Positions 10,781 to 43,957 of a stretch of 64,000 nt of DNA are shown here, piece by piece. Under the pieces are notes generated by a model. That model was given only the letters and a program-made list of their open reading frames with translations. It ran no database searches and was not told where the DNA came from. Numbering within the stretch: position 1 is the first letter of the stretch; each line of letters begins with the position of its first letter. A program made the translations under genes and the position numbers. Origin of the DNA: Medicago truncatula (taxonomy: Eukaryota > Streptophyta > Magnoliopsida > Fabales > Fabaceae); NCBI RefSeq assembly GCF_003473485.1, contig NC_053045.1, positions 63,179,994 through 63,243,993 on the forward strand, in the 5' to 3' direction.

Positions 10781-11183
10781 GGCTCTTTTGATCCCTTAAT
10801 TTATTTTTTGGTTTCGTTTTGGTTCCTTAACTATTAAAAGTTTCGTTTCGGTCCCATAACTTATTTTTTGGTTTCATTTTGGTCCCTTAACTATTAAAAG
10901 TTTCGTTTTGGTCCTTTAACTTACTTTTTGGTTTCGTTTTGGTCCCTTAACTTATTTTTTGGTTTCATTTTGGTCCCTTAACTCTAATACATTCATCCTA
11001 ACATAAAGGACCAAAGTGGTTGACAGAGGATGAGTTAAGGGACCAAAACAAAACCAAAAAGTAAGTTAAAGGATCAAAACGAAACCAAAAAGTAAGTTAA
11101 GGGACCAAAACGAAACTTTTAATAGTTAAGGTACCAAAACGAAACCAAAAAATAAGTTAATGGACTAAAAGAGTAATTAAGCC
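10781..11183. mobile_element. Foldback MITE with internal direct repeats, 403 bp
   Basis: The left half is a run of CTTATTTTTTGGTTTCGTTTT/GGTCCCTTAACT modules and the right half is their inverse complement, so the whole element can fold into one long hairpin. The ends are GGCTCTTTTGATCC and, on the other strand, GGCTTAATTACTC. A perfect 10-bp direct repeat TATCACATAA flanks it (10771-10780 and 11184-11193). No coding capacity. Confidence 0.85.
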
Positions 11184-36290: not shown

Positions 36291-37699
36291 TACTCAAAAT
36301 TATTTTGTACAGGGAAGGAGAAGAGAATGGAGAGGGGGAAATCGATGATGTTTTTTTTCTTCTCTTTTTTCTATTTTCTTTTTTATTTATTTAATTCCAT
36401 AAATCAACTGCTTATAAAAAAATAAGAGCAGTGATAGGTGTACCACCATAGGTGGCACTACACCTTATACCACCCTTATGTGGCACCACAAATAATAATA
36501 AAAAAATTAAATCAATTCCATGTCAAAAAAGAAAAATCAAAGATGAAAAAACTAATTAAAATTTGTGCCGTACCCTACTACCCTCTCTCATTTCAATTCA
36601 TTTTGTTGGAAAATTTCTCTTTCTTCACCACCATTCATTCCTTCAACCCTAGCCGCCGTCTCCTGATCCATCTTCCATTCAACCCTAGCCGCGCCGCCGT
36701 CTTATGCTCCATCTTCCATTACACCCTAGCCGCGCCGCCGTCTCCTGCTCCATCTTCCATTCAACCCTAGCGCGCGCCGCCGTCACCTGCTCCATCTCCG
36801 ACGATCTGTTTCACAGTGTTCCTTTTTCAACTAAGGTATTTTCTTTCATATTCCTCTTCCTCTTGGCTGTTAGATTTTGTGATTTATGTAAGGTCTTGAC
36901 TGAGATCTTGGGTGATCTAATGTTCTTTGGTCCTGGCTAAGATCTAATTTATGTAAGCATTTCTTTGAAACAATTTAAGCATTTCTTTCAATGTTTTATT
37001 GAGTGATAAAGTTTGTTGACAGTCTTTGAAGCTTGGTTTAGTCTCTTGGTAAATTCGTAGATTTCAATTATTAAAGAAAACTGTGTGCGATTTCAATTAT
37101 TCAAAGATAATAAACCTATAGCAGACATAGTTATTAACAAAAAAGATTTTAAAAAACGGTCCTTAGTGCGATTTCGCCGTTAGAAAACGGTCACGGCAGC
37201 CACCGATACCGTTTTCACAGAGTGAACCAAGATCACAGGTGAATTACTAGGTTCTAAATTATAATACTTAGGCAAATTACTATTATGTCTAAACTAAGTA
37301 AATATCGAACTAGTTGAATCCAATTTAAAAAAATATGAATCTAAAATTCAGCAATTCAATTTTCATAGACATTTGAAGCAAGTCATTCATTGATATTCAT
37401 AAGTCAATTCTTAATATTGATAGACAAAAATATTAGTGGATAAAAGCTAGACATAATAGTAGTGGATGTGAACTAAATTATTCAAGATTACATTTGACAG
37501 TTGCATTTGATGGTAAAGTAAATTATCTAAGTTGTGAAGATGACACGCCTTTATATATATATATATATTATAATTTTTTATTTTTACAGTAACAATTCAC
37601 TTGATTAACGATAACAATTGCATCTGTTGTAGTCTTCTCAACCACTAATAACAATTACATCTGTTCCCGTGGTAATTCAACCATTGTCTAGCCAACAAA

Positions 37700-39477
37700 A
37701 TGGTATGTGTATGTGATGAATGTCAATTAGTTTGTTTGATTTCATTAGTGTTTTGTGTTTTTATTAATGCCTTTCCTTATATGTCGCCTTTGGAATTCTT
37801 ATTTATTACAGTTACGTCTCAGGCATGAATGTAAGTCGAAGTATATTACTAAAGTCAACGAGAAGCTTACCGAACTTCAAAGGTCTGAAATTCAGAAAAC
37901 ACCTTTTAAATGGTTATTGAGTTTGCCTAAGAAATTAAAAATATCCGAAAATTTGCTTGAAGAATTGGTGGAAAGATGGGATGATAGGAGTGGGGGGTTT
38001 GCTATACAAGGTCGGATAATACGGTTTACACCTTTAGATGTATGTTTTGCATTAGGACTTCGTATAATAGGTGAAAAGATGAACTTCAAAAATGACCCTA
38101 CATCCACTACGAAAGCAATGTTCGATAATGAAGTCATCAATGTAAAAACAATTTATGCTAAAATTATTAATATGGAACGAGACGAAGATGTTGAGAAGTT
38201 TTGCCGACTTTATTTACTTCTTGGTTTTGCCGAGTTCTACTTTCCAAATTCAAGTGTTAAGGTTGGTGGTTGGTGCCTAAAAATGTTAGACGACTTGAAC
38301 TTCATTGGGAGATACAATTGGGACTTGAACTCCATTAGGTGCCTAAAAATGTTTGCCGACTTTATTTACTTCTTGAGTATTGATTTCAAGTTATGTTGGG
38401 TTACATAAAAAATTGTGAAGTTTAACTTTAATTTGATGTTTAGTTTCTGTCTTCATGTCATATTATGACATGATTATAATTGATCTTTTATTCATTGATA
38501 TTTAGAGCTTGTTAGTAACTGTGACTGAAACAAGTGTAACTCAGATTAAAATGTAGTAATAATTTGTAAGCACTTTTAAATACAGATGATTGTCGTTGAA
38601 TTTGAGCATATCAACTTATAACTCTATATGACATAGGATGAAGTTTTATAGGAGATGAAATAATGTTTGTTTTGTAGGCCACTCTTTGTCTTCATGCCAT
38701 TTTATGGCAACAATTTAATTTAATTTATTTATTTTTATTAAATTATAATAGTCGTATTATATATGTATATATAGGTATGGGCTCTAGAGCATGTACTAGG
38801 ATACGAACGAAGTTATCATGATTCTCCATTGACGTTTCCATGATTTATGAAGGCACGTGGTGTTAGTTTGGTTGGCAAAAATATATCACACTTGCTTGAT
38901 AATTATTTGGTAAGGTTGAATAAATATTATTATTTATATTTATCTATATAAATTTTGTATATAGGGTTTAAGCGGTGTCAATAGTTCATTAATATTTATA
39001 TTGTATCAACCTTGACAGGTTATTGAAGAGTTAAGTGCAACTAAAGAAGAGGTTGCAAATGAAGTTGTGAGGGAGGCGTTAGATCGAGCGCCAAGTGGAT
39101 ATATTAAATGGAGACCAGATCCTATTATCAGTCAGTTAATTGTTAACAATCGCCTGTTGGGGGAAGCAAACAAAGGACTTTCCGCAAGGATATCTCTTCT
39201 TGAATTGGAAACTAGAGAGATGAAGAAGTTATACGGTAGTGCACAATCCAGTTATGTGGACGAAGGTGTCTTCAATGATGAAGGTGTCCACGAGGACGTC
39301 TCCATGGATGAGATTGAAAGAGTTATTGAAAGGGAGGTGGCAAATGTATCATATGATGTAGCACATCATGCATCAAATCTCTTAACTATAATTAAGGACA
39401 AGCCAAGAAACCGTGTAAAAAGTGGGGTTCTGCTTTCCCTATGGGTGAAGGATGGACGCATAAAGAAGAAGATTTAA
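37700..39477 (+). pseudogene. Transposon-associated Ulp1-family N-terminal-domain-like protein, disrupted
   Basis: Proposed exons: 37700-37702 (ATG only), 37812-38408, about 38776-38908 and 39019-39477. The first long exon reads KLTELQRSEIQKTPF, LLEELVERWDDRSGGF and RFTPLDVCFALGL, then a FCRLYLLLGFAEF stretch. This is the pattern of the region N-terminal to the Ulp1 cysteine peptidase in transposon proteins of legumes (DUF1985 or plant-mobile-domain-like). The 38776 exon reads WALEHVLGYERSYHDSPLTFP and then meets an in-frame TGA, most simply a CGA-to-TGA change, before FMKARGV. The last exon is a charged C-terminal part (SARISLLELETREMKKLY). The frame of the first exon also runs into a stop (38406-38408) before the next. 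There is no Ulp1 catalytic domain. Family naming is from memory and moderate in certainty; the broken state is seen directly. Confidence 0.6.
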
Positions 39478-39799
39478 ATTAGTGTAGTGTTTTGATATGA
39501 TTGCAATGTAGATGTTTTTTTATGCTATTTTTTATTTAGTAGGACAATGTCGCACCTATAATATTAATGGAAACACCGTATGTTGTTAGTTATTAACATT
39601 GTTGAACTATCCTACAGTTTAATGAGTCACTGTGCCTGTTATGTAATAAATTTTATTGGGAGGTTTGTTGTTATGTTTTATTCTTTGATATAAAAAATGT
39701 TTGTGTCTTTATTGACAGATAAAATCTTGGCATGTATATATTTTGCATGAGTCAAAGGGCGACTAATACCCATCTTTGACAAGATTTGGTGAAATGTTA

Positions 39800-40700
39800 C
39801 CAAACTTAAGTTTGAAAAGGCTTTTAGTGCATTGTTCAAATGAGATCATGTGTTCGATTCTCGTAAAACAGGATTAGTTACAGCTGAGAGTGATAAACTA
39901 GCCAAATATATGCAATGTATGACCATAATTTTACATATGTGTGACCACTATTTTTTCATACTTTAGAACTTGTCCGTCCTTAGGCGTAATAAATGCGCAT
40001 ATGGTAAAAATAATCATTTCTGGTTGGAAAGGCTTTTAGTGCAGTGTTCAAATGAGATTATGTGTTCGATTCTCGTAAAATTGGATTAGTTACAGCTGAG
40101 AATGATATACTAGCCAAATATATGCCATGTATGACCATAATTTTACAAATGTGTGACCACTATTTTTTCATACTTTAGAACTTGTCCGTCCTTAGGCGTG
40201 ATAAACGCGCATATTGTAAAATTAATTATTTCTGGTTGGAAAGACTTTTAGCGCAGTGTTCAAATGAGATTATGTGTTCGATTCTCGTAAAACATGATTA
40301 GTTACAGCTGGGAATGATAAACTAGCCAAATATATGGCATGTATGACCATAAGTTTACAAATGTGTGACCACTATTTTTTTCATAAATTAGAACTTATCC
40401 GTCCTTAGGCGTGAAAAACACGCATATTGTAAAATTAATTATTTCTGGTTGGAAAGGCTTTTAGTGCAGTGTTCAAATGAGATTATGTGTTCGATTATCG
40501 TAAAACAGGATTAGTTACAACTGAGAATGATAAACTAGCCAAATATATGGCATGTATGACCATAATTTTACAAATGTGTGACCACTATTTTTTCATAAAT
40601 TAGAACTTGTCGTCCTTAGGCGTGATAAACGCGCATATTGTAAAACTAATTATTTCTGGTTGGAAAGACTTTTAGTGCAGTGTTCAAATGAGATTATGAA
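39800..40700 (+). repeat. Tandem satellite, about 212-bp unit, five starts in forward orientation
   Basis: The marker CTTTTAG(T/C)GC starts at 39821, 40033, 40245, 40458 and 40669, giving periods of 212, 212, 213 and 211. Each unit carries TTCAAATGAGAT, GATTAGTTACA, CTAGCCAAATATATG, TGTGTGACCACTATTTTTT and CTTAGGCGTGA. The copies are very alike, which suggests recent amplification. There is no long open frame. Confidence 0.93.
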
Positions 40701-41190
40701 AAAAATGTGGTCAAACATAGCATATTATCCGGAACATTGTAATCACATTTTATCACTGCATTAAAAGCATCTCAAACAATAAACAACAACTTCTTTTTAC
40801 GCGTTACAATTATTTTACACCTAACGACGAACAAATTCAAATATTTGGAAAAATAGTGGTCATATAAATGAAAAAATGTGGTCAGACATAGCATATTTTT
40901 GGCTAACTTTACTTTACCGGCTATAAATATAAACCCGGAACATTGTAATCACATTTAATCACTGCACTAAAAGCATGTCATACAATATTTTATTATTGCA
41001 CTAAAAACATGTCAAACAATAAACAACTTCTTTTATAAGCTTCATGTATTTCACGCCTAAAGACTGACGAATTCTCATATCTGGAAAAATAGTGGTCACG
41101 TAAATAAAAAAATGTTGTCACACAGAGCATATTTTTGGCTAACTATCCTAGAACATGTTATTAAAACTGAAATGTGACCAGATTTTTTTT
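40700..41190 (-). repeat. Inverted, diverged copies of the 212-bp satellite
   Basis: On the - strand, TTAGCCAAAAATATGCTATG, TGACCACATTTTTTCATTTA, GACCACTATTTTTCC and CGTCGTTAGGTGTAAAAT follow in the same order as in the forward units. About two units are present, clearly more diverged than the forward array. Confidence 0.8.
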
Positions 41191-41552
41191 CCTGGAAATT
41201 ATGATAGGGAGAATAGTTATGTACATAAATTCAATACGAATTAATTTATCAGTCTTCTGAACAAGTATAATCTTTTATAGATGACCATCGATAACCAAAA
41301 AAAGTATGTCTTCGTCAAATGTACATCAATATCAATCAACCACAATTAAGTTAGAAAATGTATGTTTAACCGATCAATAAGTCCGCGGGTAACATAGCAT
41401 TATCCAATACAAAACTTCTCTGCTTATTTTCTTCATGAAGCACCAAACGACAAACAATGTCACTGCGAATCCGAAGGATATCCTCCTGTAGATAAGTAAA
41501 TGCTTTTATTTCGATATATATCGATATTTACATATTATTAATTAATCAACAA

Positions 41553-41921
41553 CTAATAAAGGTCTAGATGTTTAAAGGCCACAGTCCTAACGCCTACTCT
41601 AAATCCTAAGCTACTTGCATCCCACCTATGCAATAATTCCTTCAATAAAGTACCATTCATTCCTATATAGGTCTTCATTTCCACCAGATATCGGAATGGA
41701 GTTTTCATAATTCTACTCCTTTGCGCATCAGATAATTTTCGGTTAATATCTACCAACTTATTGGTACGGGGCATTTGAGTCTTTATCTGTGGCTGAAAAA
41801 TGAACATTATTCATTCATTAATGGCATAAAACATAAACAGTTACATACACATTAAACGTCTCATTAATTAAATTGTACTTACACCAACACCACCATCCCT
41901 TTTTCGTTTGTTTTCGTTCAT
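41553..41921 (-). pseudogene. Inverted paralogue of the 37.8-kb coding sequence, truncated
   Basis: Two exons on the - strand: 41921-41883 (ATG, then NENKRKRDGGVG) with donor GTAAGT, and 41792-41553 after a TTTTTCAG acceptor. The second reads INRKLSDAQRSRIMKTPF, then LLKELLHRWDASSLGF, and ends in a stop at the point where the + strand copy goes on as DVCFALGL. About 45% identity by eye to the + copy over some 60 residues, including QRS-I-KTPF, LL-EL--RWD, GF and LD. It is either a truncated decayed copy or a very short (about 92-residue) protein. The leader-like region upstream (42540-42770) with its own intron suggests it was once expressed. Confidence 0.55.
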
Positions 41922-42936
41922 GATGTTGACCTTATCTGTTGTATACAAAAACAATTTCTATCAACAACAATTAAAACACACACAAATGTCCAATTTCTAT
42001 CATAGACATACCGACAAAAATTTATCTGCACTTAACCGTATTTTAACATAGACGTAACCACATTTTTTTTCTTTCAAATTTCCAACACTTTGACCATTTT
42101 TTAACACAAGTGTGACCACAATTCTTTTGATTAAAAATTTGACACTAACTCTATGTGATAACATTTAGAGGAACAACCACAATCAAACTAAAAAAATTGG
42201 GGAAAGCTTAAGATTTTTTACTAACAATATAGGACATGTTTGGCACAACCCAACTAAAGAATGACTTAACTTAAGCAACATAAATTTTCATTCCAGACCC
42301 ATTTGCAATTACCAACAAATCAAATAGTAGCAACAACGCAACATCTTAATTGACAACAACCCATAATGCAACAATCAAACAGTAGCAAATAACAGAGATT
42401 TTAACTTAATTATGAACTAAACATCTAAATACTATCAAGCTTTGTTTAACCCAAAATTATCACTAAATCAGTATCATATCCTAATATGATTAATTTCTTC
42501 ATCATACCCAAATGATTTCAAAATAAATTTTAACCTTCATCAAATACAAGATTCGAGAAAACATAACCTTCAACGGAGAGATTCGGCGACGGAAACTTTG
42601 ACAAAACGCCAACCGTTGAATCGCAGAAGGAGATCGCAGTTGCTTTTGATCGTATTTGTTGGGGAGAGAGCTAATTAAGCTGTCGCGGTTGAGGGAGAGA
42701 TGGAGGCCTCAGAGGAAATGGCGGAGAGAGGGATGGAGAAAGCAGGATTCACTCTCGTAGAGAGAGAGAGGTGAGACACTGATTTTTTTTCTTTTTTAAT
42801 TTTCTAGATCTATTTCTTATTTGTTTTAAGAATTATTTACCATGTCATCAAAGATCAATTTTTTAAAGTATTTTAGCCATGTCATTGGTGGTATGAAGGG
42901 GTGTGTGACATTTGGTGTGTCTATGTATACTTTTCC

Positions 42937-43957
42937 AAAAATAATAATTAATAATCAACTAGATAAACTTAAAGTCAAAGAGAATCTTCCAATAGAGGAA
43001 TTATCAGTAAGCCAGCAAATCAATAGGACCCCCTACCCAAAAAGCACACAACCAAGACAATGAAAGATCAGCCTCTTTTCTATGGCCAATGCATGAAAGG
43101 CGGAGATTAACTTTAAATCAACAGGGATAACAAAAACTAAAGAGAGAAAGAAAAAAAACCATTGAACTCTAGTTGAGCGCCCTTAGATATTTAAATTTGT
43201 CAAGTAGTTTGAAAAAGAAAGATAGGATAAAGGGTGCATGGTGGTGACTAACTAGTATACACACTCTTTGGTTGACTACAATTAATTTTCTTGAGTTCAG
43301 GTAAATATGCTAGTTCTATAATACACAAGTGATATAAATGCAGTATCATAATTCATAAACAAGTTTGTTTCCCATGCTGATTAATAAGTTTTATCGTTGG
43401 GTCAAGCGAGATATTATAAAATTTATTAATTCGGTTGTGAAATATAAACTTGTGCATGATACAACACTATTTTACTTGTGCACCATAGACTTAATCTGTA
43501 AAATGATTTAAACGTTCTCAAAAGTGATTTTTACATTAACTATAAATCGCTAAATTGATATCTAATATTGTAATGATTGGTAATTTTGGTCATTGAAATT
43601 TACAAATAAACAAAAATGTCCTTTAATGGTAAGATGTTGATTAAAAACATATATTAAAGTATTTTAGTAATAACATTCAACTTAAATTTATGATGTAGGG
43701 ATTAGATAATAGCAAGTTATATGTAGAAGGGAGAGAGTATGGTGTCATACTGTCCTATATAACTTTTAAAGTTTCAATTATCATGCTTTTCATAAAGCAT
43801 TCCAATTTAGAAGATGCTCCAAATTGAAAATCAAACATAGGATAATGACCTCAACTATATTTATTTACATGTCTCCTTCATGGATCCAGTTCAAAAGGAG
43901 CTATAAAATCAGTGCAACTGCCACTGTCAGCTTTCAAAACAAAAATTCCAAAATAGA
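42937..43957. other. Stretch between the palindromic element and the small gene
   Basis: No gene seen up to the promoter of the next locus. A TATA-like CTATAAAAT at 43901-43909 lies about 55 bases before the start codon of the 104-residue protein. Confidence 0.5.

Follow-up and report, generated by a model that had tools for sequence, protein, structure and literature searches.

MuDR, the maize Mutator element, makes target site duplications (TSDs) of 9 bp and contains intergenic repeats. In Arabidopsis, the VANC proteins of VANDAL transposons, which have a DUF1985 domain, are described in excerpts of two studies as removing methylation and as binding to short motifs that lie in non-coding tandem repeats of the elements encoding them, and their variable parts contain tandem peptide repeats (PMC5735166, PMC10398659). 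The PMD domain is found in Mutator-like elements (MULEs), and a role against the silencing of transposable elements has been proposed there as speculation (PMC5418596). In Mu killer, one MuDR end is present twice and mudrA is duplicated in inverted orientation, according to an excerpt of PMC3440606. Here we describe an element at positions 36426-42936 of a 64,000-nucleotide stretch of the Medicago truncatula genome (the window, C4:63179994-63243993). It is a MULE, thus of a known kind, in a variant form with mirrored PMD genes and satellites. No published description of this plan was found among the titles and abstract openings returned by a literature search.

On balance, we take the window element to be a recently mobile, non-autonomous and internally deleted MULE made of mirror halves that carry VANC-like modules. 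Its features are the following (coordinates in the window, strand, description).

36418-36425, no strand: 5' TSD AAAAATAA, identical to the 8 bp directly after the element
36426-36545, plus: left terminal inverted repeat (TIR), begins GAGCAGTGATAGGTGTACCACC; inner limit approximate (start common to the copies, alignment to the right end)
36652-36797, plus: 3.5 copies of a 41-bp repeat within the left leader (tandem repeat finder)
37812-38322, plus: truncated main exon of the left PMD-like gene, with the splice border set by eye (PF10536, E 2e-5, 24.4 bits, below the cut-off of 34.9)
38323-38371, plus: filler from nearby sequence at the internal deletion of the left gene (absent in the C6, C4 and C8 relatives; local repeats)
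38775-38909, plus: second exon of the left gene, with an in-frame TGA and borders set by eye (read from the sequence)
39019-39477, plus: left gene, third exon (open frame 39016-39477)
39812-40698, plus: left satellite, 212-bp unit, 4.2 copies (tandem repeat finder)
40699-41144, minus: right satellite, mirror-oriented and diverged (66% over 403 nt to the left units; local repeats)
41553-41792, minus: truncated main exon of the right PMD-like gene, with the border set by eye (37% amino acid identity to the left gene)
41885-41921, minus: possible first coding exon of the right gene (MNENKRKRDGG..), read by eye from the sequence
42540-42780, minus: right leader region, by position (between gene and end; partial alignment to the C6 relative)
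42805-42936, minus: right TIR, ends ..TATACTTTTCC; inner limit approximate (end common to the copies, alignment to the left end)
42937-42944, no strand: 3' TSD AAAAATAA, matching the 5' duplication

Mobile copies and mirror halves

The limits given by the first-pass annotation were right: they enclose a unit of 6511 bp with AAAAATAA (8 bp) at either flank. The genome searched comprises 430 Mb in 42 contigs, and the searches for family parts and transposase relatives scored the best 40 of 132, 150 of 923, 60 of 927 or 40 of 925 candidates. End-to-end copies with the identical order were found at four other places (contig and position in Mb), C7:48.49 (TSD GATATAAT), C3:4.34 (CTCCAAAA), C1:19.69 (AATACAGAA) and C1:27.49 (TACATTCTG); the first-pass annotation had let its reading hang on such copies, sharing both ends and the internal order. 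A TSD of 8-9 bp flanks five of the five short copies, and each copy has its own. The window copy differs from the C7:48.49 copy at 5 of 6509 aligned sites and divergence among the five is 0.08-0.49%, which points to recent mobility. A 12,073-bp relative (C8:33853872-33865944, or C8:33.85, the 12-kb copy) has a 9-bp TSD (TTAATTTAA) and a copy at C8:2.37 has one of 8 bp, so that all these duplications lie in the range of about 8-11 bp typical of MULEs. The start of the left end, with at most three mismatches, has 38 matches in the genome, compared to 0 for the reversed control. Two small non-autonomous elements (L063:201-975 and L065:176-1825) have 9-bp duplications and related ends, GAGTGGTGATAGG.. 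and ..TTTTCC, so that this type of end is common to a wider group.

The two halves of the element are inverted homologues: ends, coding exon and satellite match in mirror order, and the large-scale inverted plan first proposed is thus borne out. In the window, the satellites align inverted at 66% over 403 nt (E 2e-41) and the left and right PMD exons at 37% amino acid identity over 70 aa (E 2e-16). The satellite is the sole strong inverted match inside the window copy at the DNA level, the similarity of the exons being seen as protein; the direct-orientation control, made on the window halves, gave four alignments, 37-44 nt long, with E values of 8e-5 to 2e-4. The left half of the 12-kb copy was compared to its reverse-complemented right half, the slice being a few bases off on both sides. 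The ends, the PMD exon (57% over 584 columns, E 5e-18) and then the satellite (62% over 947 columns, E 5e-76) are collinear, and one further inverted piece of 85 columns (E 1e-4) is out of order.

The diverged inverted ends that had been noticed are clear in the 12-kb copy (67% over 131 columns, E 2e-6; score of 35 versus 19 over 120 bp), which thereby has the TIRs of a MULE. The terminal repeats of the window copy are similar but weak: compared to the maximum of 300 mononucleotide shuffles, the local score is 17 versus 13 over 60 bp and 30 versus 23 over 250 bp, but 23 versus 26, which is not significant, over 120 bp.

The orientation of the satellites switches at about 40699, where the flip had been placed near 40700, and the two coding copies do face each other: left and right genes were both placed at 13 loci and are convergent at all 13, other loci having one kind only. 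The longer relatives, of 10.5, 12.1 and 23.7 kb, have fuller convergent genes, and each of their mirror halves contains a terminal repeat and a PMD-family gene, tail to tail; each half of the 12-kb and of the 23.7-kb copy also has a satellite beyond the 3' end of its gene. The left and right genes are only about 35% identical, which indicates that the mirror is old. An ordinary MuDR-like plan, in which convergent genes are driven from the terminal repeats, the second gene is a simple paralogue and the mirror satellite is incidental, has a precedent in MuDR itself, whose two convergent genes have promoters in or beside the TIRs (excerpt of PMC3440606). However, satellites that are inverted homologues at E 5e-76 mean that more than the gene is mirrored, and we judge this plan very unlikely.

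Two 15-nt words, GTGACCACTATTTTT and GCTTTTAGTGCAGTG, are retained at mirror positions in both diverged satellites; at 62-66% identity, their persistence could be due to chance. TGACCA words were considered as a dispersed motif and dropped, since they are few outside the satellites, and only the two words shared by the satellites are therefore put forward.

The PMD genes and the palindromes of the family

Aligned over 218 aa, the two main exons of the C6:29.31 relative show 35% identity and 62% similarity, and both match PMD (PF10536) with E values of 9e-10 and 3e-13 (38.6 and 50.1 bits, above the curated cut-off of 34.9). The truncated right gene of the window gave no match to this profile; the right genes of the five short copies are 95-97% identical in amino acids to that of C6. 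The third exons of the left and right genes of the 12-kb copy share 32% identity over 97 aa. The element had been assigned to the Ulp1-carrying type, but the Ulp1 C48 domain was not found in 10 frames (E up to 1) or in 61 frames (E up to 0.01), and the genes match PMD. A MULE with accessory genes and no transposase is what stands of that assignment in the window copy. The 61 frames come from two long relatives (40 of the 44 frames of at least 55 aa of the C8 12-kb region, the four outside the element being omitted, and 21 of 35 from L053), and no family other than PMD and DUF1985 was matched in them at E 0.01. The right exon had no match in the PDB by sequence.

Neither gene is whole in the window copy: part of the left main exon, of which a 208-codon version is present in relatives, is lost, with the filler in its place at 38323-38371, and 2.7-3.7 kb of the right gene are missing after 41555. 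About 280 bp are also lost at the satellite junction and are kept in three of the five short copies. The PMD genes may be passive captured cargo, without function, as internal stops break them in many family copies and the left gene is near neutral among the long copies. On the other hand, the dN/dS ratio (nonsynonymous to synonymous substitution, Nei-Gojobori) of the right gene is 0.15-0.42 in the ten pairs formed by the C8:33.85, C6:29.31, C4:22.9, C3:13.08 and C6:28.41 copies, and we consider cargo unlikely. Where synonymous changes are present, the remaining right-gene pairs, compared over 71-180 codons, have ratios between 0.09 and 1.62. For the left gene, 20 pairs of long versus short copies, with few changes, give 0.30-0.88. 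Purifying selection is clearly indicated for the right gene only.

A lone PMD gene with frame breaks is present at C8:28830900-28832500 (L057), and Copia-like coding sequence was seen alongside by eye.

Palindromes recur in the family, the old mirror being accompanied by a young one. The copy at C8:2374988-2379994 (5007 bp, 8-bp TSD TTTAATTA) is made up of a back-to-back pair of right halves: both ends are of the right type, and the arms, with about 57 bp between them, are 94.9% alike over 2509 columns. Copies of the family differ about as much as these arms do, so that the arms may be one half copied or two copies joined. An origin of the old mirror by inverted duplication or by fusion had been suggested from the start. 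The younger right|right palindrome shows that such events occur, but the tree of PMD proteins has long branches and does not separate duplication from fusion for the old event.

Alternatively, two related, distinct MULEs with different PMD genes and satellites may have fused, lying tail to tail with their inner ends lost. The left and right genes are only 35% identical, which favours this view, and the lone gene at C8:28.83 (41% identical to the left over 95 aa, 37% to the right over 79 aa) suggests that left and right need not be closest kin. Against it, the satellites of the two halves are homologous and match in mirror order, which copies of one unit would show too, and the tree gives no separation; such a fusion is a serious possibility that we would stop short of calling probable.

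The younger palindrome bears on the proposal that the convergent transcripts could form double-stranded RNA. It contains 50 exact inverted stretches of at least 21 nt, totalling 2210 bases, whereas no such stretch is present between the window halves, in which the longest is 15 nt; in the 12-kb copy the longest exact inverted match between halves is 20 nt. The idea is therefore weak for the window copy, and a long hairpin RNA from this copy was rejected. A silencing locus resembling Mu killer, where small RNAs from convergent transcription or from a hairpin would silence the family, is favoured by C8:2374988-2379994, through its inverted stretches and its pair of same-side ends, comparable to the two TIRA ends of Mu killer in the published excerpt. 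The window copy has no inverted stretch of that length, and we regard this explanation as improbable.

Elsewhere in the window, two arrays of a 31-bp unit (TTTTGGTCCCTTAAC..) lie at 10786-11170, in opposite orientation and about 50 bp apart.

A transposase-bearing block and the favoured reading

The 23.7-kb copy (C7:28573107-28596849, found among the best 150 of 923 MULE candidates) resembles the 12-kb copy, with added left satellite (5.5 kb in two stretches, 1.2 kb being unread between them) and a 6.3-kb block. This block contains an open frame of 745 aa with FAR1, MULE (PF10551, E 1.6e-36) and SWIM domains (C7:28580646-28582880, L067:1747-3981). At the DNA level, a 982-base part of the frame is single-copy, with a second-best match of 73% over 300 bases, and the nearest relatives of the protein, at four loci, are 59-62% identical (best 60 of 927 candidates). 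Transposases related at 59-61% lie at C5:38.80 and C6:19.57. Pieces of the block occur in six of the seven other copies examined, in an order and on a strand that agree with C7 to the extent that the genes and satellites of these copies are known. The sequence just 3' of the transposase was found at 15 further loci, 12 of which already carried family ends, satellite or PMD. The block meets the left satellite at one phase in C8:18.96 and C8:26.97, and at another in C7. Elements with GAGTGGTGATAGG ends were rejected as autonomous partners: the L063 element ends after 775 bp (201-975, TSD TAAATTCAT), and the FAR1/MULE gene near this GAGTGGTGATAGG end falls outside it.

We propose that the old mirror would have formed by inverted joining of two half-elements, as later at C8:2374988-2379994, and that a large block with a FAR1/MULE-type transposase may originally have lain between the halves. 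The left protein with the left satellite and the right protein with the right satellite would make two diverged modules, in which the PMD/DUF1985-like proteins would, by analogy with VANC, bind short motifs in the non-coding repeats of the element and lift silencing. The window copy, which has no whole gene, is presumably mobilized in trans; it probably depends on enzymes encoded elsewhere. VANC-like anti-silencing acting on the satellites is the best functional model that the analogy suggests, rather than a demonstrated function. That a single transposon would hold two diverged anti-silencing modules, each a predicted DNA-binding PMD/DUF1985 protein and a repeat array, mirrored around a transposase, with protein-target pairs that could have coevolved apart, is a tentative extension of this analogy.

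Several observations weigh against this reading. The transposase frame was found in one family copy only, that of 23.7 kb. On its 5' side, adjoining the block, lies a repeat of about 625 bp (C7:28579571-28580200, L067:672-1300) found at 39 other places with 88-96% identity (best 40 of 925 candidates); with such a high-copy neighbour, the transposase is not bracketed by family sequence, and it could have been inserted or be a FAR1-like gene that was captured. The 12-kb copy, a near-twin, is devoid of the block, its satellite being uninterrupted at that point, and the order or strand of the block, judged by coordinates, does not fit at C1:21.59, C2:11.44 and C2:0.205. Given the pieces present across family copies, the 5' repeat and the intact satellite of C8:33.85, we hold that the block is old and that the transposase is probably, but not certainly, the family's own. 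The main exons of the C6 relative match DUF1985 with E values of 5e-4 and 3e-4, below the cut-off, as is the single DUF1985 match of the genome search. Among four long copies, the six left-gene pairs have dN/dS values of 0.57-2.56, with few changes, and no TSD was seen when the flanks of the 10.5-kb C6:29.31 copy were inspected. Finally, VANDALs in general are not known to have TIRs. The Ulp1-bearing VANDAL group is termed non-TIR in PMC13317346, whereas the Medicago element has terminal repeats.

If the favoured reading is true, VANC-like anti-silencing extends beyond the Arabidopsis VANDALs and PMD in transposons gains a testable molecular role. The two halves would be a natural experiment in protein-target coevolution inside one element, in a family where an old palindrome and a young one coexist.

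Outside the element, 32 of the 38 window frames of at least 95 aa were scanned and gave one or two matches each to cytochrome P450, protein kinase, patatin, glycosyl hydrolase 1 and leucine-rich repeats, which indicates an ordinary gene-bearing region around the insertion.

Comparison with known systems

Like MuDR, as presented in the excerpt cited above, the Medicago element has TIRs and two convergent genes; these genes are mudrA and mudrB in MuDR, whereas they are two PMD paralogues, accompanied by a mirrored satellite, in Medicago. The Ulp1-carrying MULEs (KIU of Arabidopsis, and others of melon, rice and grapevine) are comparable in having an accessory gene within a MULE, but their Ulp1 domain was not found in the Medicago frames scanned. 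The Medicago MULE family MuTAnT, in the part of PMC4486113 that describes it, has other ends (mask GGGGTTTGCTAGAACA) and targets TA repeats.

PMD-carrying MULEs of grasses and Amborella also have PMD inside a MULE; in the passages that describe them PMD-C is fused to the transposase, whereas two separate convergent PMD genes are present here. Mu killer resembles the C8:2.37 copy in its two ends from one side and its inverted duplication, but it is a maize mudrA derivative with demonstrated silencing, and the window copy is only a diverged mirror.

The VANDAL/VANC system of Arabidopsis, as far as the excerpts cited describe it, likewise combines an element-borne protein of the DUF1985 kind with non-coding tandem repeats containing short conserved words; the Medicago proteins have weak similarity to DUF1985, and the arrays are here the 212-bp left array and the mirrored right array. 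Tandem peptide repeats, as in VANC, are present in the right protein of the 12-kb copy. The Medicago element differs in its terminal repeats, its two diverged putative modules and a DUF1985 score below the cut-off.

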